From Saprospiraceae bacterium (GTDB taxonomy: Bacteria > Bacteroidota > Bacteroidia > Chitinophagales > Saprospiraceae), in the NCBI GenBank assembly GCA_028284395.1, contig JANQRV010000224.1, positions 1 through 64,000 on the forward strand: DNA of 64,000 bases, read 5' to 3'. Positions 2,430 through 17,009 of this stretch are shown piece by piece. The notes beneath the pieces were generated by a model, which did no database searches, had not been told where the DNA came from, and saw only the letters and a program-made list of their open reading frames with translations. Each line of letters starts with the position of its first letter. Positions within the stretch are counted from its first letter, which is position 1. Position numbers and translations under genes: made by a program.

Positions 2430-2464
2430 GATTGAAAGTTAATGGAATGAAACTGTGGTGCTTT

Positions 2465-2596
2465 GATGCTACATGGGCCTTGGCGGCCCATTTGATGCTT
2501 TGATACTGGTCACAACTTGCTTTTGCTGATCGACAATGCTGTTTGGCCATCACAGCATCACAGCATCAAGGTAGCCCCCAAGGCTACCGAAGCATC
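2465..2596. repeat. Paired 35-bp hairpin element, copy 1
   Basis: Two 35-bp hairpins face each other at 2465-2499 (minus) and 2562-2596 (plus). Read in element orientation each is AGCATCAA, a 7-bp stem, a 5-nt loop ending CAA, the complementary stem, then G(A/T)AGCATC. The stems are ATGGGCC/GGCCCAT and GGTAGCC/GGCTACC, so bases change while pairing is kept. Starts are 97 bp apart, exactly as in the second copy at 11033-11164. The element fills the cysD-cysN gap and ends just before the cysD stop codon. Confidence 0.8.
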
Positions 2597-4951: not shown

Positions 4952-7900
4952 ATGTCAGGTATGGATACGGGAAAATTACTAAAAAGATTGCTTCAGGAGC
5001 GAATTTTGGTCATCGACGGTGCAATGGGTACCATGGTGCAGGAATACCAGTTGGAAGAAAAGGATTTTCGGGGAGACCGCTTCGAGGATTATCACATGGA
5101 TATCAAGGGCAACAACGATGTGTTGTCGATTACCCAGCCCAATGTGATTCGCCAGATCCATAAGGCTTATCTGGAAGCCGGTGCGGATATCATTGAGACC
5201 AATACCTTTTCCTCTACCAGCATCGCACAAGCCGATTACGACATGGAAGCCTACGTTTATGAAATGAACGTGGCATCGGCCAAGATTGCTAAAGAAGTGG
5301 CCACTGAATTTACGGCTAAGAATCCGGACAAACCCCGGTTTGTGGCGGGGGCATTAGGACCCACCAATAAAACCGCTTCGCTTTCACCGGATGTGAACGA
5401 TCCGGGGTTTCGGGCCATCTTTTTTGATGATTTAAGAGCAGCATATGGGGAGCAGGCCCGGGGTCTACTGGATGGTGGAGCAGACTTGCTGTTGTTGGAA
5501 ACCATCATCGATACCCTGAATGTCAAAGCGGCACTTTTTGCCATCGAAGAAATATTTGAAGAACGAGGAATTAGAGTGCCCATCATGGTGTCGGGGACGA
5601 TTACGGATGCGAGCGGCAGGATCCTTTCCGGCCAGACAACGGAGGCGTTTTGGACCTCGGTAAACCACATCGACTTATTGAGTGTCGGATTGAATTGCGC
5701 CCTGGGGGCACAGGAGATGAGGCCGTACCTGCAAACGCTTTCCAAAGTAGCCGACTGTTTTGTGAGCGCCTATCCCAATGCCGGATTGCCAAACGAATTC
5801 GGCGAATACGATCAGGGGGCAGAAGAAATGGAGCAATACATCCGTGAATTTGCCCAGAGTGGATTGGTCAATTTTATTGGTGGTTGCTGTGGCACTACAC
5901 CCGACCACATTCGTGCCATGGCAAAAGGGGTAGAGGGTATTTCGCCCCGCAAAGTATCGGAAATCGAAGCTTATACCCAATTGAGTGGTCTGGAACCACT
6001 GACCATTCGGCCGGAAACAAACTTTGTCAATGTTGGAGAGCGGACCAATGTTACGGGTTCGCGAAAATTTGCCCGATTAATCAAGGCGGGAGATTACGAC
6101 GAAGCCTTATCGGTAGCCCTGCATCAGGTAGAAGGCGGCGCGCAGATCATCGATGTGAATATGGATGAAGGACTGCTGGATTCAAAGAAAGCAATGACCG
6201 AGTTTCTACATCTGTTAATGTCCGAACCGGAAATTGCCAAACTGCCCATCATGATCGACTCTTCCAAATTTGAAGTCATTGAGGCCGGGCTGAAATGTGT
6301 ACAGGGTAAATCGGTCGTGAATTCCATTTCACTTAAAGAAGGAGAGGAGCAGTTTATACGACACGCCAAACTAGTCAAGCGTTACGGAGCCATTCCCTTG
6401 GTAATGGCATTTGATGAGGAGGGTCAGGCCGACACCATGGAGCGCAAGGTTGAAATTTGCAAACGGGCTTACGACATCCTGACGCAACAAATCGGTTATC
6501 GGGGAGTCGACATCATCTTTGACCCCAATATTTTTGCCGTCGCAACGGGGATCGAGGAACACAACCAATATGCGATGCATTTCATCGAGGCGACCAGAAG
6601 AATCAAAGAATTGTGTCCGGGTGCGAAAGTAAGCGGCGGTGTCAGTAATATTTCTTTTTCTTACCGCGGAAACAATGTGGTCCGGGAGGCCATGCATTCT
6701 GCTTTCTTGTACCACGCCATACAGGCGGGAATGGATATGGGTATTGTGAATGCCGGGCTGATCGAAGTATACGAAGCCATTCCCAAAGAATTATTGACAC
6801 GAGTTGAAGATGTCTTGTTTGATCGAAGACCAGATGCGACCGAACGTCTAACCGAGTTTGCAGAGCAGGTCAAAGGAGATGGGGGTAAAACGATCGCCAA
6901 AGATCTGTCCTGGCGGGAAAATTCGGTAGAAGAGCGATTGTCGCACGCGCTGGTCAAAGGAATCACGGATTACATTGAAAAGGATGTTGAAGAGGCTCGA
7001 TTAAAAGCCAGCCGACCATTGGATGTGATCGAGGGACCCTTGATGGATGGAATGAATGTAGTAGGGGACTTATTCGGGGCGGGGAAAATGTTCTTGCCGC
7101 AAGTCGTCAAGAGCGCCCGCGTGATGAAGAAAGCAGTTGCTTACCTGACTCCGTTCATTGAAGCGGAAAAGATGTCGGGTGGAAAATCTTCCAAAGGAAA
7201 GCTGCTTTTGGCAACGGTAAAAGGAGATGTGCACGATATTGGCAAGAATATTGTAGGAGTAGTACTGGGATGCAATAATTATGATATTATTGACCTGGGG
7301 GTAATGGTGCCGGCAGATAAGATACTAAAGGCGGCCAAAGCCCATCAAGTTGACATCATAGGCCTTTCGGGCCTCATCACCCCGTCGCTCGATGAAATGA
7401 CTTTCGTGGCAAGAGAAATGCAACGGCAAGGTTTCAATGTTCCCTTGCTCATTGGCGGAGCGACTACTTCCAAAACCCACACGGCTGTTAAGATTGAACC
7501 TGAATACGATGCGGGGCCCGTTGTTCACGTACTCGATGCATCCAAGAGCGTGGCCGTGGCTGGTGCGCTGTTAAACAGCGATCCCGACAAAAGAAATACG
7601 TTTATTACCGAACAAAGAGATGCCTACCATCGTATCAGAGAATCAAGAGGAGATCGAACCGGTGTAAAGAAATACATCGGCCTGGAAGAGGCCCGGAAAA
7701 ATCGATTTGCCATCGATTGGAATGGCTACCAGGTTTCCAAACCTGAATTTTTAGGTAAAAAGATCTTTGAAGATTTTGATTTGCAGCAATTGGTAGAGGT
7801 GATCGATTGGACGCCATTTTTCAGCACTTGGCAGATGGCGGGAAAGTTTCCGGCAATTTTAACCGATGAAGTGGTGGGCACCGAAGCCCAAAAGCTATTC

Positions 7901-8647
7901 GATGACGCCCGGGAAATGTTGAAAAAAATCATTGCGGAGCAATGGATAACGGCCAAAGGAGTAGTGGGTATTTATCCAGCCAACTCCGTGCGACACGATG
8001 ACATTGAGATTTATGCCGATGAAACGAGAACCGAACCACTAATGGTGGCCAACCACTTGCGGCAACAGCGTAAAAAAGCACCGGGACAACCAAATCTTAG
8101 TCTGGCTGACTTTGTTGCACCAAAGGGTGAAAAGGAAGATTACATCGGGGCTTTTGCCGTTACCGCAGGTCTCGGTATTGAAAATAAAGTCAAGCAATTC
8201 GAAGCGGCGTTCGATGACTACAATGCCATTCTTCTGAAGGCTTTGGCGGATCGGTTGGCCGAAGCCTTTGCCGAATGGATGCACCGCTACGTGCGCACCG
8301 AATTATGGGGATATGCATCCGAGGAATCGCTGGATAATCAAGCTTTGATCTCAGAGAAGTATCAAGGCATTCGGCCGGCTCCCGGTTATCCCGCTTGTCC
8401 GGAACATACCGAAAAAGGAAAGATCTGGACCTTGTTGGATGTTGAAGAACATACCGGCATGAAGTTAACCGAGAGCTATGCCATGTACCCGGCGGCTTCC
8501 GTTTCGGGTTGGTATTTTGCACATCCGCAATCCAAATACTTTGGATTGGGACAGATTATGGAGGACCAGGCGGCGGATTACGCAAAGCGTAAAAAGATGT
8601 CCGATGGCCAGGCGGAAAAATGGCTGGCACCGGTCTTGAATAATTGA
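4952..8647 (+). CDS. metH: Cobalamin-dependent methionine synthase
   Basis: MetH transfers the methyl group of 5-methyltetrahydrofolate to homocysteine through methylcobalamin. The 1231-aa product is full length and has all four modules in order. The homocysteine domain (about 1-330) has zinc ligands Cys249 and the Cys312-Cys313 pair in GGCCGTTP. The pterin-binding domain (about 350-620) contains [12 protein letters not shown]. The B12 domain (about 650-900) has DVHDIGK, whose His761 is the lower axial cobalt ligand. The activation (SAM-binding) domain has [15 protein letters not shown] near the C-terminus. The ATG at 4952 is chosen although a second in-frame ATG lies at 4961; neither has a strong ribosome binding site. 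It stands alone between the cys operon and the polysaccharide locus and appears to be ordinary core metabolism. Confidence 0.97.
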
Positions 8648-8715: not shown

Positions 8716-9249
8716 ATGATAGAAGCAATCATATCTTCGAAAACGCGGATCAAACTTTTACTCAAGTTTTTTCTCAACAGCAAAACTACGGCTTACCTCC
8801 GTGGTTTAGAGTCAGAATTTGGGGAATCTACAAATGCGATCCGTATTGAACTCAATAGGCTGGAAGAGGCCGGGATGTTGTCCTCCCGTCTCGATGGGAA
8901 CAAGAAGATGTTCCAGGCAAATACCAAACATCCGTTATTCGGAGAAATTCACAACATTTTATTGAAACACGTGGGCTTTGATCGGATCATTGAAGATGTG
9001 ATCGAGCGACTGGGGAAGGTAGAAATGGTCTTTGTGTTGGGCGACTTCTCTAAGGGACTCAACAGTCAAATCGTAGACCTGATGATCATTGGCGATATTC
9101 AAAAGGAATATTTGATCCAATTGATCGACAAAGCCGAACGACTGATTCGCAGAAAGATCAGATACATTATATACAGCGAAGAAGAATTCAAAGACGTCAA
9201 CTTACAATCTTATAACCCGGAGCCATTATTACTCTGGTCGAAAGATTAA
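8716..9249 (+). CDS. Winged-helix regulator with nucleotidyltransferase-like C-terminus
   Basis: A 177-aa protein with an N-terminal winged helix-turn-helix of ArsR-like type (about residues 1-75: ISSKTRIKLLLKFFLN, then NAIRIELNRLEEAGML). The C-terminal half (VEMVFVLGDFSKG and DLMIIGDI) resembles the minimal nucleotidyltransferase fold, probably without catalysis. The frame is open back to 8644, but a promoter at 8656-8686 sits inside that extension, so I place the start at the ATG at 8716. Proteins of this build often open exopolysaccharide loci in Bacteroidota. It is 6 bp upstream of the aminotransferase gene, in one operon with the NusG-like antiterminator, so a regulatory role in expression of the glycan locus is likely but inferred. 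Confidence 0.8.
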   Translation: MIEAIISSKTRIKLLLKFFLNSKTTAYLRGLESEFGESTNAIRIELNRLEEAGMLSSRLDGNKKMFQANTKHPLFGEIHNILLKHVGFDRIIEDVIERLGKVEMVFVLGDFSKGLNSQIVDLMIIGDIQKEYLIQLIDKAERLIRRKIRYIIYSEEEFKDVNLQSYNPEPLLLWSKD

Positions 9250-9255
9250 GCAACT

Positions 9256-10392
9256 ATGGTAGACAGTAGGAACATACAAATGGTAGATTTAAAGGGTCAG
9301 TATCGTAAGATGCAAAAAGATATTGACGCCGCTGTACTGGAAGTAGTCCGGTCTGCTGCCTTCATCAATGGCCCTGCTGTTAAGTCTTTTCAATCCAACT
9401 TAGCCAGTTATCTGAACGTTGCCGAAGTCATTCCTTGCGGCAATGGGACCGACGCACTGCAGATCGCTTTGATGGCCTTGAATCTGCAGCCTGGTGATGA
9501 GGTCATCGTACCTTCTTTCACATACGTAGCTACTGCGGAGGTAATTGCGCTATTGAGATTGACGCCCGTAATGGTGGATGTCGATCCCGATACCTTCAAC
9601 ATTACCGCCGAAATCATGGAGGCGGCGATAACTCCTAAGACGAAAGCAGTAGTGCCGGTCAATCTCTTCGGACAGAGTTGCGACATGGAGCCGATCATGA
9701 AGATCGCTGATAAACACGGTCTTTACGTCATTGAAGACAATGCCCAGGCCATTGGTTCGGATTATACCTTCTCAAACGGAAGCGTGCAAAAATCCGGAAC
9801 GATTGGTCACATCGGTTGCACTTCTTTTTACCCTTCCAAGAATTTGGGAGCGTACGGTGACGGCGGAGCGATCTACACCAACGATCGTGAGTTGGGAGCC
9901 AAGATACGTATGTACGCCAATCACGGACAACAGAAGCGGTATTACCACGAGACGATTGGCGTCAATTCCCGCTTGGATTCCATTCAGGCTGCCATCCTGG
10001 ATATCAAATTAAAAAGACTGGATGAATATGCCGCTGCGCGCAACGAGGCAGCAGATCACTACGATCAGGCATTTGAAGATATAGAAGGGCTTGTTACTCC
10101 GGTGCGGGCTTCAAATGCATCTCATGTTTTCCATCAGTATACCCTGCGGGTAACCAATGGCAAGCGAGATGCGCTACAAGCTTATTTGAAGGAACACGGC
10201 ATTCCTTCCATCGTATATTATCCGGTACCCCTTTATCGGCAGAATGCCTACAAGAACTATGTGGAAGCAGGATTTAGTTGGCCGATCACTGAAGAATTAT
10301 GCCAGACCGTGCTCTCTCTGCCCATGCACTCGGAGCTGGACCTGGAAACGCTTCAGTACATTTCGGGAAAGGTTTTATCCTTTTTTCATTAA
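9256..10392 (+). CDS. DegT/DnrJ/EryC1/StrS family sugar aminotransferase
   Basis: A PLP-dependent aminotransferase of 378 aa acting on keto-sugar nucleotides. The family signature is clear: NGTDALQIALMALNLQPGDE, then VEDNAQAIG, and the Schiff-base lysine Lys195 in FYPSKNLGAYGDGGA. Length is normal for the family. The exact substrate cannot be told from sequence; 3-keto or 4-keto hexose nucleotides are both possible. It lies between the winged-helix regulator (6-bp gap) and the NusG-like gene (35-bp gap), apart from both dehydratase genes at 25646 and 51804. In principle it could stand in for the missing PseC of the nonulosonate cluster, but its distance and operon make this less likely. Confidence 0.9.
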   Translation: MVDSRNIQMVDLKGQYRKMQKDIDAAVLEVVRSAAFINGPAVKSFQSNLASYLNVAEVIPCGNGTDALQIALMALNLQPGDEVIVPSFTYVATAEVIALLRLTPVMVDVDPDTFNITAEIMEAAITPKTKAVVPVNLFGQSCDMEPIMKIADKHGLYVIEDNAQAIGSDYTFSNGSVQKSGTIGHIGCTSFYPSKNLGAYGDGGAIYTNDRELGAKIRMYANHGQQKRYYHETIGVNSRLDSIQAAILDIKLKRLDEYAAARNEAADHYDQAFEDIEGLVTPVRASNASHVFHQYTLRVTNGKRDALQAYLKEHGIPSIVYYPVPLYRQNAYKNYVEAGFSWPITEELCQTVLSLPMHSELDLETLQYISGKVLSFFH

Positions 10393-10427
10393 TTAGCTTT
10401 TGACAACAAATTATAAATCCACCAAAG

Positions 10428-10985
10428 ATGAACACTGGAACAAAATACGAGAATCACTTAGACCCCGATGAGGCCAAATGGTTCGCCGTATACACAAAAT
10501 ACAAACGGGAAAAATTGGTTTGCCGGCACCTGGAGGAAAAGGGAATTACCTCCTACGTACCACTCCAACACCATACCCGTCATTATACTCGCAAGATCAA
10601 GCAGGTTACCCTGCCACTTATCAGCTGTTATATTTTCACCAAGATCACCCGCAAGGAATACGTGCCGGTTCTGGAGACGCAAGATGTCGTAAAATTTGTG
10701 CAATTCTCCCGCAACCTGATCGCGATTCCGGAGAATGAAATCCAACTCCTGAAGCGCATTTGCGGCGAGAAATTGGATTTAGAGGTAGAGCCCTGCAGTT
10801 ATCACGTAGGTGACCATGTGGAAATTATCAGCGGCAATCTAACCGGCCTGAAAGGGAAACTACTCAGGACCGGCAAAAAGAACTTTTTAGTAGAATTGGC
10901 CCACATCGGCTATACTTTGAGAATGGAGATCGATCCGGCGATATTGAGGAAGACTTCCGGGTTGAAAACAGCTATTGCTTATTAA
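10428..10985 (+). CDS. NusG-like transcription antiterminator (UpxY/RfaH type)
   Basis: A 185-aa NusG paralogue. The NGN domain starts at KWFAVYTKYKREKLV (about residues 13-27) and contains SYVPLQ and the SCYIFTKI strand. A KOW domain follows (YHVGDHVEIISG, LTGLKGKLLRT, about 123-165). Specialised paralogues of this kind, UpxY in Bacteroides capsule operons and RfaH and LoaP elsewhere, let RNA polymerase read through terminators in long polysaccharide operons. The position here fits: it is the last gene of a small operon, and directly after it comes a 519-bp leader with several strong hairpins before the first sugar gene. The target element was not identified. There is no sign of truncation. 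Confidence 0.9.
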   Translation: MNTGTKYENHLDPDEAKWFAVYTKYKREKLVCRHLEEKGITSYVPLQHHTRHYTRKIKQVTLPLISCYIFTKITRKEYVPVLETQDVVKFVQFSRNLIAIPENEIQLLKRICGEKLDLEVEPCSYHVGDHVEIISGNLTGLKGKLLRTGKKNFLVELAHIGYTLRMEIDPAILRKTSGLKTAIAY

Positions 10986-11032
10986 GATTTGCCAGATCAA
11001 GATTTGCCAGATCTTTTAGATCTGGCAAATCT
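10984..11032 (+). repeat. 15-bp tandem plus perfect 15-bp hairpin
   Basis: AAGATTTGCCAGATC occurs twice in tandem (10984-10998, 10999-11013). The second copy forms a perfect stem, AGATTTGCCAGATCT (11000-11014) with AGATCTGGCAAATCT (11018-11032), around a TTT loop. It begins at the stop codon of the antiterminator gene. The strong stem could halt transcription, but no U-tract follows, so it is not a standard terminator. A related hairpin lies at 11224-11254. Confidence 0.75.
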
Positions 11033-11164
11033 GTGGCTGCAACAGCCTTAGCGGCTGTCTTGATGCTCTGATCCTTTGATCGTCATAACGCGTCATCGTA
11101 TAACGAAAGCGAGTAGTGGCCATCATCGCAGCATCAAATGGGCCGTCAAGGCCCATGAAGCATC
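11033..11164. repeat. Paired 35-bp hairpin element, copy 2
   Basis: Hairpins at 11033-11067 (minus) and 11130-11164 (plus) repeat the design of the element at 2465-2596. The flank AGCATCAA, a 7-bp stem and a 5-nt loop are kept, with stems GACAGCC/GGCTGTT and ATGGGCC/GGCCCAT. The 97-bp spacing of starts is identical to copy 1. The block TGGCCATC just before the right hairpin is also shared. The right hairpin is nearly identical (33 of 35) to the left hairpin of copy 1. Confidence 0.8.
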
Positions 11165-11223
11165 ACAGCATCACAGATACAGAGACATAGACCAATAATC
11201 GGAATAAAAAACGTCATGACTTT

Positions 11224-11254
11224 GATTTGCCAGATCTCCAAGATCTGGTAAATC
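11224..11254 (+). repeat. GATTTGCCAGATCT hairpin, second copy
   Basis: GATTTGCCAGATCT (11224-11237) pairs with AGATCTGGTAAATC (11241-11254) around a CCA loop, with one G-U pair. It is the same family as the stem at 11000-11032. No U-tract follows. Confidence 0.65.
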
Positions 11255-11504
11255 TGCACGACGTACATACCAAAAAACTTGAAATTAGTGTACGGCGTCA
11301 TCCGGGAGATGACACGGTATTGTAGCGTCTATCTAGGAAATGTGGTCCCTGCGACTCATTAAAGGCGAAGCCGTATCTCTACTCCCAAATAAAGCCCGCT
11401 AATTGGCAACAGTTTCATCCACAATTACGTACTAACCATCATCCAACGTCTGCGCACCAGTTTCCCGCTTACGGCTCACTACGCATCACATAACATCATA
11501 AATT

Positions 11505-12800
11505 ATGCATCAAGGACTGCTGGCAAAAGAAAAGAAAATTTCCGTTATCGGATTAGGATATGTAGGACTTCCATTGGCACTTGAATTCGCCAAGAAGTTC
11601 AGTGTTGTTGGTTTCGATATCAATGAGCAACGTGTGGAGATGATGAAGAATGGAGAGGATCCCTCCAAGGAATTGGAGTCTGAAGCTTTTGAAGACAAAG
11701 ACATCCTCTTTACCGCGAATCCGGACGACCTGAAACAGGCTCATTTTCATGTGGTGGCAGTACCTACTCCCATCGATGGCCACAACAACCCCAATTTGCG
11801 CCCCCTCTTGGGTGCGTCTAAAACCGTAGGTGCCATCCTTAAAAAGGGTGATTACGTCATTTACGAATCCACGGTTTACCCCGGTTGTACCGAAGAGGAC
11901 TGCGTGCCGATCCTGGAAGAAGAATCTGGTTTGAAGTTCAACCGGGATTTCAAAGTGGGATACTCGCCCGAACGCATCAACCCGGGCGACAAAGAGCACA
12001 CCGTTGCCAAAATCCTAAAGATCGTGTCGGGCAGTGACGACGAATCACTCGAAGAAATCGCCAATGTTTACGGCGAAGTGATCACTGCCGGCATTTACAA
12101 AGCCAATGGCATCAAGGTTGCAGAAGCAGCGAAGGTAATCGAAAACACCCAGCGCGATCTCAACATTGCTTTCATGAACGAGCTGTCGGTCATTTTCGAC
12201 AAAATGAACATCGATACTAAGTCCGTCCTGGAAGCGGCCGGAACGAAATGGAACTTTCTGAAGTTCTCTCCTGGCTTGGTCGGCGGCCATTGCATCGGCG
12301 TAGATCCCTATTACTTGCTACATAAATCGAAACAATTAGGTTATACCCCCCAAATCATTACCAGTGGCCGGAAGATCAATGATGAAATGCCGGCCCATAT
12401 TTCTAAAAGACTGGTACAGTTACTGATTCAAAGAGGAAAAAACCCGGGCGATTCCAAAGTCCTCGTCATGGGAATTACCTTCAAAGAAAATGTAGCCGAC
12501 ATAAGAAATTCCAAAGTTGCAGACCTCGTTAAAGAACTCATGCAATTTTCCATAAATGTGCACTTAGTGGACCCCCACGCCTCCCCGAACGAAATTGCAC
12601 ACGAATACAGATTAACCTTGATGGACAAACCCGCTAATGATTACGACGCCGTAATTGTAGCGGTCGCCCACGATGAATACAAAGTTCTGGACATGGATTA
12701 TTTCAAATCCTTAATGAACGGCCAGCCCATATTCTTCGACCTCAAGGGAATCTACGAAAATGCAGCGGCCAACAACGGTCTGACCTATTGGAGATTATAG
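11505..12800 (+). CDS. UDP-N-acetylhexosamine/hexose 6-dehydrogenase (TviB/WbpO-like)
   Basis: A nucleotide-sugar dehydrogenase of 431 aa that oxidises C6 of a UDP-sugar to a uronate with two NAD+. The N-terminal Rossmann motif is VIGLGYVGLPLALEFA, the catalytic Cys263 lies in GGHCIGVDPYYL, and the C-terminal domain has GITFKENVADIRNSK. The overall pattern is nearer the TviB/WbpO/CapL group (UDP-GalNAc or UDP-GlcNAc dehydrogenases) than plain UDP-glucose dehydrogenase, but substrate is not certain from sequence. It is the first sugar gene after the hairpin leader and lies 18 bp before an epimerase, a pairing common in uronate-containing capsule loci. Confidence 0.9.
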   Translation: MHQGLLAKEKKISVIGLGYVGLPLALEFAKKFSVVGFDINEQRVEMMKNGEDPSKELESEAFEDKDILFTANPDDLKQAHFHVVAVPTPIDGHNNPNLRPLLGASKTVGAILKKGDYVIYESTVYPGCTEEDCVPILEEESGLKFNRDFKVGYSPERINPGDKEHTVAKILKIVSGSDDESLEEIANVYGEVITAGIYKANGIKVAEAAKVIENTQRDLNIAFMNELSVIFDKMNIDTKSVLEAAGTKWNFLKFSPGLVGGHCIGVDPYYLLHKSKQLGYTPQIITSGRKINDEMPAHISKRLVQLLIQRGKNPGDSKVLVMGITFKENVADIRNSKVADLVKELMQFSINVHLVDPHASPNEIAHEYRLTLMDKPANDYDAVIVAVAHDEYKVLDMDYFKSLMNGQPIFFDLKGIYENAAANNGLTYWRL

Positions 12801-12818
12801 TACTTTTCAAAGTTTCTA

Positions 12819-13877
12819 ATGAAGATATTAATCACCGGTACGGCAGGTTTCATCGGGTTCCATCTGGCCAATCGCCTGATGGAAAGGGGAGATGAAGTAA
12901 TGGGCCTCGACTGTATCAACGACTACTACGACGTCAATCTGAAATACGACCGACTGGCCTACGCCGGCATCGAGCGATCACAAGTCGAATACGGCAAAGT
13001 AGTCCAGAGCAATAAACACAAAAATTACCGTTTCATCCAATTGAAACTGGAAGACCGCGAGGCACTCCATCAATTGTTTGCAACCGAAAAGTTCGATGCC
13101 GTATGTAATTTGGCAGCACAGGCCGGTGTCAGGTACAGCCTCGTCAACCCCTATGCCTACATCGATAGCAACATCATCGGCTTCGTCAACATCCTGGAAG
13201 CTTGTCGCCACAACGAAGTAGGGCACCTGGCCTACGCCAGCAGCTCCAGCGTATATGGCCTCAGCAAACAAATGCCTTTTTCAACTTCCAACAACGTGGA
13301 CCATCCCATGTCGCTCTACGCCGCCAGCAAAAAGAGCAACGAACTAATGGCCCACACCTACAGTCATTTGTTTGGCGTACCAACTACAGGTCTGCGATTC
13401 TTCACCGTATATGGTCCCTGGGGCCGCCCCGACATGGCCTTATTCCTCTTCGCCAAAGCCATGCTCGAAGACCAACCCATCAAGGTCTTCAACCATGGCA
13501 ACATGAAGCGGGATTTTACCTACGTCGCCGACATCGTCGAAGGCATCACCCGGGTAATCGACAATCCGCCAAAAGGAAATCCCAATTGGTCAGGATTACA
13601 ACCCGATCCATCAACATCAACGGCACCCTACAAGGTCTACAACATCGGCAACCAAAACCCCGTAGCCCTCATGAGCTTCATCGAAGCCATCGAAAAGAAA
13701 CTGGGTATCGTGGCCAAGAAAAATATGATGCCCATGCAACCCGGCGACGTGGAAGCCACTTCAGCCGATGTCTCCGACCTGGTGGAAGACCTGGGCTATC
13801 GTCCGGACACCCCCAACCAGGAAGGCATCGATCAGTTCGTTGACTGGTATACTGCCTACTACAAAGTCATGGTCTAA
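12819..13877 (+). CDS. UDP-glucuronate 4-epimerase-like SDR
   Basis: An extended short-chain dehydrogenase of 352 aa. It has the Rossmann motif GTAGFIGFHLA, the substrate-recognition segment DCINDYYDVNLKYDRL typical of UDP-glucuronate 4-epimerases (CapI/LspL), the serine motif SSSSVYG, and the catalytic pair Tyr167 and Lys171 (YAASK). It probably interconverts UDP-glucuronate and UDP-galacturonate or the corresponding N-acetyl uronates made by the upstream dehydrogenase. The 18-bp gap to that gene indicates one transcript. A small ACCTCC/GGAGGT hairpin follows the stop codon immediately. Confidence 0.88.
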   Translation: MKILITGTAGFIGFHLANRLMERGDEVMGLDCINDYYDVNLKYDRLAYAGIERSQVEYGKVVQSNKHKNYRFIQLKLEDREALHQLFATEKFDAVCNLAAQAGVRYSLVNPYAYIDSNIIGFVNILEACRHNEVGHLAYASSSSVYGLSKQMPFSTSNNVDHPMSLYAASKKSNELMAHTYSHLFGVPTTGLRFFTVYGPWGRPDMALFLFAKAMLEDQPIKVFNHGNMKRDFTYVADIVEGITRVIDNPPKGNPNWSGLQPDPSTSTAPYKVYNIGNQNPVALMSFIEAIEKKLGIVAKKNMMPMQPGDVEATSADVSDLVEDLGYRPDTPNQEGIDQFVDWYTAYYKVMV

Positions 13878-14764: not shown

Positions 14765-15278
14765 GGTGGTGTTCTAATGAACCCTATTTCTTGTGGAATC
14801 GTATCACCCCTTGAGAGTAACTTTATTTCCAAAATTGTGGGGCTTTGTTTTTTGCCTGCGGCAAAGTTTGCTTGTTCTTTTTTTCATTGCCAAAAAAAGA
14901 ACCAAAAAAGTCTAGAAAAAATCAATCCCTGCCTGAACTGCGTTCACGTAGGCAGGTCCTCCGGGGATTTTTTCGGGCCAACGCACGTGTGGGTATGGGA
15001 TACACTAAGGCTACTTTGTAGCCTCTGACGTGTGAGGGTGTGAGACTGAGTAGGACAGCTGTAAGCACGGCTGATAGAACAGCTGCCCTACTCAGCCCCA
15101 CACCCTCAAAAGAAGGCTTTTAGAGCCGCCGTTCACACTCACACCGCGGGATGCCAGAAAAGTTCCGCGGAGCATTGGAAGTTTTCTAGACCTTTTTGGT
15201 ACTTTTTGGGGCAATGCCAAAAAGTACAACCCCCATTGCCGTAGGCAACAAACAAACAATCCCATAAACAACATTACT
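14765..15278. other. Intergenic region filled by inverted-repeat element
   Basis: The 514-bp gap between the phosphatase and wza has no convincing gene. An 83-codon frame at 14777 runs through repeat arms and is rejected. Almost all of it is the large imperfect inverted repeat described in its own entry. No promoter box for wza was found. Confidence 0.6.
14841..15262. repeat. 420-bp imperfect inverted-repeat element
   Basis: The outer arms 14841-14919 and 15182-15262 are inverted relatives sharing CATTGCC, ACCAAAAA and GTCTAGAAAA blocks. At the centre a 29-bp stem pairs 15034-15062 with 15079-15107. Its three non-Watson-Crick positions (15043, 15045, 15055) are all G-U on the minus strand but A-C on the plus strand, so a minus-strand RNA would pair fully. 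A smaller CCTGCCT/AGGCAGG hairpin lies at 14929-14957. The form is that of a non-autonomous mobile or REP-like element common in this phylum. Confidence 0.75.
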
Positions 15279-16059: not shown

Positions 16060-16920
16060 ATGAAAGGCATTATACTCGCTGGGGGTTCTGGTACCCGTTT
16101 ATACCCGATCACAAAGGCCATTTCCAAGCAATTGATGCCGATCTATGACAAGCCGATGATCTATTATCCCTTGTCAATCCTAATGCTGGCGGGCATTCGT
16201 GAAGTATTAATCATCACTACACCTCATGATAATCCTCAATTTCAGCGATTGTTGGGAGATGGATCGGAATTAGGTTGTAGTTTCAAATATGCCGTACAGG
16301 AAGTTCCCAATGGCCTGGCACAAGCGTTCGTGATTGGTAAAGAATTCATTGGTGAAGATACGGTGGCTTTGATATTAGGAGACAATATTTTTTATGGTGC
16401 TGGTCTGTCTCAGTTGTTACAGAAGAGTGCCCAATTAACGAAAGGAGCTAAGGTTTTTGCTTATGGGGTCAAGGACCCTGAAAGATATGGCGTTGTGGAG
16501 TTCGATCAGCATTTTAAAGTACTTTCCATTGAAGAAAAACCTAAAAAACCCAAATCAAATTTTGCGGTTCCGGGGCTGTATTTTTATGATAACGAGGTGG
16601 TTCGGATTGCTAAAGAACTTCAGCCATCCGCCCGGGGCGAATATGAAATAACGGATGTAAATAAACATTATCTAAAAGAAGAAGCCTTGACGGTCGGGCT
16701 AATGCAACGTGGCACGGCCTGGTTAGATACGGGGACATTTGATTCCTTGAGTGATGCATCGGAGTTTGTAAGAGTGATCGAAAAACGTCAGAGTAGTAAG
16801 ATTGGATGTATTGAGGAGGTAGCTTGGCGAATGGGCTTTATTGATGATGCGGCACTGCATCACATTGCAGAGAAATACATTAAGAGTGGGTATGGTTTGT
16901 ACTTAAAGGGATTATTGTAA
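16060..16920 (+). CDS. rfbA: Glucose-1-phosphate thymidylyltransferase
   Basis: RfbA (RmlA) forms dTDP-glucose from dTTP and glucose-1-phosphate. The 286-aa product has the nucleotide-binding signature [11 protein letters not shown] near the N-terminus, [11 protein letters not shown] and [13 protein letters not shown], and is full length. The partner genes for dTDP-rhamnose (rfbB, rfbC, rfbD) are not in the window; the RmlD-like protein at 26658 belongs to another cluster. So it is an orphan copy here, or the pathway is completed elsewhere. It is translationally close to wza (4-bp gap). A 32-bp tandem repeat starts directly after its stop codon. Confidence 0.95.
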
Positions 16921-16996
16921 TTTTAAAATTCTCGCCTTTTATTTGAAGTCTATTTTAAAATTCTCGCCTTTTATTTGAAGTCTATTTTAAAATTAT
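16921..16996 (+). repeat. 32-bp tandem repeat, about 2.4 copies
   Basis: The unit beginning TTTTAAAATTCTCGCC and ending ATTTGAAGTCTA occurs at 16921-16952 and 16953-16984 without change, and a third partial copy follows from 16985. It lies between rfbA and the ATPase gene. A TTTG in the second unit (16974-16977) with TATCTTGT 21 bp later resembles a weak promoter that would start transcription at the ATPase ATG. Confidence 0.8.
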
Positions 16997-17009
16997 CGTA
17001 TCTTGTAAT

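Follow-up and report, generated by a model that had tools for sequence, protein, structure and literature searches.

The window (the whole stretch of DNA analyzed here, 64 kb) comes from a genome of 11.15 Mb that is 94.8% complete. It encodes a NusG paralog within a capsule or polysaccharide cluster, as judged from the Pfam matches of the neighboring genes (Table 1). A first-pass annotation had called a NusG-paralog gene at this position, in agreement with the Pfam result. The gene is not the first of its cluster: a DegT aminotransferase gene ends 35 nt upstream. Two NusG-domain genes were found in the genome, this one and another adjoining secE and rplK. Against curated family models the paralog scores 122.8 bits for UpxY (NCBIfam NF033644, cut-off 100), and stays below the cut-offs for RfaH (47.9 bits vs. 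144.5) and LoaP (51.9 bits vs. 125). Its AlphaFold2 model, a single static prediction from 19 sequences, has a mean pLDDT of 86.6, with an NGN domain and a KOW region predicted as beta strands; in RfaH, the autoinhibited KOW is alpha-helical. The closest PDB folds to this predicted structure are NusG and RfaH, and a PDB search by sequence gave only weak matches, to RfaH and SPT5.

Table 1. Features of the paralog gene, its leader, and the first gene beyond it (positions in the window).
Feature	Position	Strand	Remarks
UpxY-family NusG paralog, 185 aa (NGN + KOW)	10428–10985	+	Pfam NusG 1.2e-15; NCBIfam UpxY
Dispersed repeat outside the element: 15-mer in tandem, running into a perfect hairpin of 15 bp	10984–11032	+	
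Dispersed repeat outside the element: pair of short hairpins forming a REP/BIME-like doublet	11045–11176		
Second copy of palindromic repeat, 14-nt arms, one mismatch	11224–11254		
Conserved candidate recruitment/pause element, match to covariance model R1	11337–11377	+	37.8 bits, E 3.3e-7 in a search of the genome
RNA hairpin of the element, arms 11338–11344 and 11355–11361, loop holding CTGCGA 11349–11354	11338–11361	+	Covariation across copies
12-mer resembling ops, GGCGAAGCCGTA; at the predicted pause the RNA 3' end would be at 11374	11364–11375	+	Putative pause position
UDP-sugar dehydrogenase, first gene 3' of the element	11505–12800	+	Pfam UDPG_MGDP_dh domains

At this locus upxZ does not directly follow the paralog gene; the next gene is that for the UDP-sugar dehydrogenase. 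Beyond the conserved element, the larger ORFs of the window are all on the + strand, up to 63.9 kb. Among 20 proteins sampled from this part, 15 belong to sugar or polysaccharide types, of which three (MBOAT, sulfotransferase, and GFO/IDH-type dehydrogenase) are generic; the remainder are one AAA/DUF4143 ATPase and four without a Pfam match at 1e-8. Two hairpins of 12 pairs lie between the CpsB/CapC and Poly_export genes (14872–14904 and 15197–15229), and a 32-nt unit is present in 2.5 tandem copies at 16920–16998. Upstream of the locus is a methionine synthase gene, metH (4952–8647). In one relative (L025:47–2566) there is also what we take, by eye, to be metH, and the metH-adjoining locus is perhaps a conserved chromosomal site. 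A conserved protein of ~177 aa, with a start like MIETLISSKTRI, is often encoded directly upstream of the paralog in relatives (L025:5419–5952, L037, L039, L043–L048). The L025 copy has a weak PaaX-like match (0.0013, below the cut-off), and the protein is possibly a partner regulator.

Dispersed repeats in the leader

The most conspicuous features between the paralog gene and the dehydrogenase gene are hairpins. A 15-nt tandem duplication at 10984–11013 overlaps the paralog stop codon and runs into a perfect 15-bp stem at 11000–11032, much as the first-pass annotation had described. The “two 35-bp hairpins” and “another 14-bp stem” that it listed next appear to be a double count of the hairpins at 11000–11032 and 11224–11254. 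The 6-bp hairpin that it added can be read at 11297–11313, and no U-tract follows either large hairpin, as it had noted. With loops of 3–10 nt and at most one mismatch allowed, 11000–11032 and 11224–11254 are the only hairpins of at least 13 pairs in the 64 kb, and four Markov-shuffled windows gave a maximum of 11 pairs per hairpin, so the observation of unusual hairpins stands.

Both belong to repeat families. Compared with its own genome, the leader (10986–11504) gave 59 matches at E ≤ 10, itself included, and matched 17 other places at E ≤ 5e-4. A hairpin related to the palindrome AGATTTGCCAGATCT was found at 12 of 14 fetched genome places, just one of which lies inside an ORF of at least 150 aa, so that the repeat is mostly intergenic. 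Two short hairpins, inverted and bordered by TGATGCT and AGCATCACAGCATCAC words, make up the ~130 nt at 11045–11176. Many contigs carry complete or partial copies, and one copy lies within the window (2453–2585, minus strand). The doublet family is of GGGCC..GGCCC type, has AGCATCAC tandem words of 8 nt, and occurs at scattered places in the genome (loci L004–L021). We take REP and BIME to be the fitting names for these dispersed leader repeats. The likeness is that the large hairpins and the 11045–11176 doublet are dispersed palindromes, whereas the conserved element described below has three genome matches above 30 bits, each before polysaccharide-type genes. The large hairpins of the leader are ordinary dispersed repeats. 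A single match to Y1_Tnp (RAYT-like; 23.6 bits vs. a cut-off of 23) is located on the same contig ~73 kb away (G000:C156:84783–85148; L026, L074), and this Y1-transposase gene is a possible mobilizer of the palindromic repeats.

The corresponding gaps were compared in relatives. A usable paralog ORF was present at 25 of 29 loci (all except L050, L053, L054, and L055), and with the next ORF called automatically, the distance to it ranged from an overlap of 4 nt to 456 nt. None of these 25 loci has a hairpin of at least 13 pairs downstream of the paralog, the largest having 11. In the window, a scan listed no intrinsic terminator on the + strand of 10985–11505. No sigma-70-type promoter was listed for 11260–11505, which is weak evidence against a promoter there, as is the absence of the promoter motif TANNTTTG from both strands of 9486–13004 (3519 nt; 2.28 occurrences expected).

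A conserved element downstream of the paralog gene

Comparison of the gaps 3' of the paralog gene in relatives from several genera is where the word CCTGCGA...GGCGAAGCC was first seen. It is part of an element in which a hairpin with covarying arms and a YUGCGA loop is followed by 2 nt and then GGCGAAGCC-D-T-R. The pattern CCCTGCGA-N2-14-GGCGAA occurs once in the window's own genome, in this leader, and a looser pattern had 84 matches in 68 of 298 genomes of the same family (a family label inferred from named Saprospiraceae relatives). The distance from CTGCGA to GGCGAAGCC is exactly 9 nt in 46 of the 84, vs. 0–8 matches for each other spacing from 2 to 14 nt. One search for the element took in 74 hand-picked sources. 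The fetched loci hold 43 distinct copies with the 9-nt spacing, eight of which overlap a mechanically called ORF of at least 100 aa; two copies in long ORFs (L081 and L124) were dropped, leaving a set of 41 in which six of the eight are retained.

Support for the hairpin is comparative. Across all 41 copies, 5.12 of the 7 stem positions form Watson-Crick pairs, vs. 4.07 ± 0.12 when arms are swapped, with none of 2000 swaps as high. The covariance model R1 comes from 13 of these copies (the window's not among them), selected because their gap to the loop core is 3 nt and five or more of the seven positions pair. In this 13-copy alignment 87.9% of cells are paired (64.8 ± 3.0 in shuffles), changes on both sides occur at six of seven pairs, and covariation is 0.597 vs. 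0.194 (slid controls at most 0.179), a result that leans toward structure because the copies were chosen for at least five pairs. Fitting 68 distinct copies to the model gave 85.4% paired cells vs. 67.6 ± 1.2, and two-sided changes at all seven pairs. All 68 have GGC, GCC, and a T at the position of 11374, followed by a purine in 53; the variable base between GGCGAAGCC and this T is C in just one, and the successive bases of the loop UGCG are kept in 66, 65, 67, and 67 copies. Invariance of the core is in part a product of how copies were first found, through the exact core itself or a model derived from it; there was no selection on the T, the stem, or the flanks.

The window copy itself has a weak hairpin, in which five of seven positions pair, and its minimum-energy fold keeps the AAUG/CAUU pairs while also pairing part of the conserved loop. 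Folding energies are unexceptional in four of five copies (z from 0.06 to −0.93; −2.55 in the fifth), and the hairpin structure therefore rests on comparison rather than on energy. Rfam gave nothing at E ≤ 5 for 15 loci with the element, the genome's own three among them, and nothing at E ≤ 1 for window positions 9000–13000.

The element is closely tied to the paralog gene. When the best 150 R1 matches from the 298 genomes were set against the best 150 paralog matches, 86 of the former were found 32–541 nt 3' of a paralog gene and on the same strand (median 112.5 nt), and none was in any other arrangement within 1.5 kb of a paralog match listed. The gap in the window, 355 nt, is the third longest of these 86 listed cases, so the repeats have probably lengthened its leader. 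At 33 paralog-bearing loci, the window's own included, R1 has a match at E ≤ 3e-4 in 23, each of them downstream and, by coordinates, on the same strand. A paralog gene is located 51–555 nt upstream of 30 of the 43 distinct 9-nt-spaced copies in the fetched stretches. One paralog is followed by a tandem pair of elements 82 nt apart (L092:1491–1529 and 1573–1611; G068:C133).

Among the matches listed, a paralog at E ≤ 1e-20 is present in 121 of 124 genomes with the element; the other three have none at that threshold. With one genome taken per genus (112), and again among matches listed, 51 have both, one has the element only, 29 the paralog only, and 31 neither (Fisher p 6e-10, in a test that ignores part of the relatedness among genomes). 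The 29 of 80 paralog genera without a listed element count against the reading proposed below. Two named Saprospiraceae MAGs (L023 and L025) have paralog and element, and the single named isolate found, Flavilitoribacter nigricans, has the paralog with no R1 match up to E 1 at that locus (L024), which likewise counts against that reading. Across the phylum, R1 was found at E ≤ 1e-4 in three of 395 genomes, all from the same family, and among 248 genomes of the order in 28. One of these (G741) lies outside the family, and its match is on a 3.8-kb contig, possibly mis-binned, with what we take by eye to be sugar genes. At a loose E ≤ 0.5 there is an R1 match in 251 of the 298 same-family genomes, which was not counted as presence.

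The window's genome has one such paralog and three elements, the window copy and two further R1 matches above 30 bits (the next is at 22.9). On contig C266 the copy stops 93 nt short of a gene of Wzc type (Pfam Wzz, GNVR, AAA_31), after which there is, by eye, presumably a flippase gene. The copy on contig C3 stops 148 nt short of a gene for a hexapeptide acyltransferase, and the genes after it were recognized by eye as presumably those for an oxidoreductase and a Wzc-like protein. Overall, 64 of the best 150 R1 matches have no listed paralog upstream, and ORFs were called for 22 of them (20 hand-picked and the genome's own two). In 21 of the 22, the first ORF begins 13–277 nt 3' of the element. 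Sixteen of the 20 first genes scanned with Pfam (L192 and L202 were left out) are of polysaccharide or sugar type: Poly_export, CpsB/CapC, epimerases, UDP-galactopyranose mutase, glycosyltransferase, DegT, and others. The other four are an integrase 758 nt away, an Eco57I-type methylase, a LytTR regulator, and one without a Pfam match. No NusG-like gene was found in the scanned stretches at E ≤ 1e-3. At L190 (G028:C34:402389–402427) the element, at 36.8 bits, is 29 nt before the Eco57I-type restriction-modification gene, and at L191 and L192 (G280 and G312) it is 15 nt before an ORF, which at L191 encodes the LytTR-type regulator and at L192 looks alike.

Proposed role and alternatives

The ~40-nt element, with its covarying hairpin, its position downstream of the paralog gene, its co-occurrence with the paralog, and its presence before other polysaccharide genes, is probably the Bacteroidota counterpart of JUMPstart/ops, a recruitment and pause site at which the UpxY-family antiterminator would act in cis and in trans. 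The same register and layout as ops, together with a UNCG-type word in the loop, are what lead us to read it in this way. In this scheme, 11337–11377 would mark transcription complexes for the antiterminator encoded just upstream. The nascent RNA would fold the small hairpin in or near the RNA polymerase exit channel, and the polymerase would pause ~13 nt past the stem, at the T of GGCGAAGCC-D-T-R; with pause hairpins in general, such a distance between stem and RNA 3' end corresponds to a stem located at the exit channel. The non-template strand of GGCGAAGCC may form a mini-hairpin in the cell, as that of ops does. As single-stranded DNA, its first nine bases are modeled to fold as GGC-GAA-GCC at −1.7 kcal/mol for the window 12-mer and −1.4 for another, vs. 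−0.9 for ops, all small energies. The antiterminator would dock at the paused polymerase and presumably stay bound, allowing read-through of the long polysaccharide cluster, and the same protein would act in trans on two further polysaccharide gene sets of the genome. The genes 3' of each element are assumed to form single operons.

A more tentative extension, which we consider possible and somewhat doubtful, is a two-part address read by one UpxY-family factor: the UNCG-like RNA loop would hold it near the exit channel, in the manner of LoaP, while the non-template GGC-GAA-GCC mini-hairpin would gate its loading during the pause, in the manner of ops/RfaH. If true, one factor would combine modes of recruitment so far known from two different NusG-paralog families.

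Other readings of the leader have to be set beside recruitment of the antiterminator. The first-pass annotation had judged pausing or factor-dependent arrest likelier in the leader than intrinsic termination. The leader does contain a conserved cis-element, which lacks U-tracts and so fits pausing; the hairpins that the annotation named are the dispersed repeats. That the hairpins at 11000–11032 and 11224–11254 are themselves pause or arrest signals for the paralog is very unlikely: they are the strongest in the window and located in the leader, but the repeat families to which they belong also occur at other places in the genome, they lack U-tracts, and the 25 gaps of relatives reach 11 pairs at most. 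They were rejected as the regulatory signal on these grounds.

The element could instead be a cis-regulatory RNA read by a metabolite, as a riboswitch, or by another RNA-binding protein, the paralog sharing polysaccharide genes with it by function only. In favor of this are the covariation of the hairpin arms around a nearly invariant loop, and the 29 of 112 sampled genera that have the paralog and no element among the matches listed. This is nonetheless improbable given the one-sided tight linkage (86 of the best 150 matches, and none otherwise within 1.5 kb), the paralog in 51 of 52 element genera among matches listed, and the small size of the element, ~40 nt with one small stem and an ops-like layout and register. 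A double-stranded DNA operator or promoter part for polysaccharide genes might be expected shortly before them, as the element is in 21 of 22 unlinked sites (13–277 nt before the first ORF), but its stem positions change on both sides with pairing kept, and it is on the paralog strand in all 86 listed linked cases, which makes this reading very unlikely. With the antiterminator site as the preferred reading, there is a concrete 40-nt candidate site with predictions at the level of base pairs, and a way to list candidate target genes in any genome bearing the element.

Comparison with known systems

Three systems invite comparison. In Bacillus, LoaP needs a UNCG-type leader hairpin (PMC12691694), the dfn RNA. 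The two are alike in that a small leader hairpin is tied to a NusG paralog, and the YUGCGA loop contains UGCG, which in sequence fits UNCG. They differ in that here UGCG is inside a larger loop and an ops-like 12-mer follows. UNCG loops usually have a C-G closing pair, which is absent in the element.

In the capsule loci of Bacteroides, UpxY works on its own operon through the leader that precedes upxY (PMC7819879, PMC7593976), an arrangement described for B. fragilis. The likeness to UpxY that the first-pass annotation had drawn is sound for the protein, which passes the cut-off of the curated family model and is encoded in a polysaccharide cluster. It does not extend to the arrangement, as the element is 3' of the regulator gene and also, by position among the matches listed, at unlinked genes. 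If the two-part reading is right, the factor would control a regulon in trans, unlike the one-factor-one-locus arrangement of Bacteroides, and within the literature searched no recruitment site has been proposed before for a member of the UpxY family. Publications on the motif, UpxY, and NusG in Saprospiraceae, among them PMC2864571, PMC6391919, and PMC12632263, gave no report of the element within these searches.

The closest parallel is with JUMPstart/ops, which recruits RfaH; ops is a consensus pause site, and RfaH binds the small hairpin, with stem C3:G8 and loop G4-A7, into which the non-template strand of ops folds (PMC5995543). The JUMPstart of E. coli K-12 (Rfam RF01707, Proteobacteria) has a 5-bp hairpin, 1 nt, and then GGCGGUAGCGUG, and the ops 12-mer, GGCGGTAGCGTG, is in the same register as that of the window. 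The Rfam model finds JUMPstart in the K-12 positive control at 60 bits. R1 does not find the E. coli JUMPstart, nor does RF01707 find the element at 15 loci; because Rfam gave no match there though the control was found, the element is placed outside the JUMPstart family. What the two share is a hairpin followed after 1–2 nt by a 12-mer that starts with GGCG and has T at position 11 and a purine at 12, a location in the leaders of polysaccharide genes with several unlinked targets, and a NusG paralog as partner. They differ in that the element has seven pairs in a longer stem, a YUGCGA loop, 2 nt, and GGCGAAGCC-D-T-R rather than GGCGGTAGCGTG; the regulator gene here is just 5' of the element, and its protein is of the UpxY family and below the RfaH cut-offs. 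The JUMPstart architecture thus appears to recur in another phylum with another sequence and another paralog family, by convergence or by common descent.
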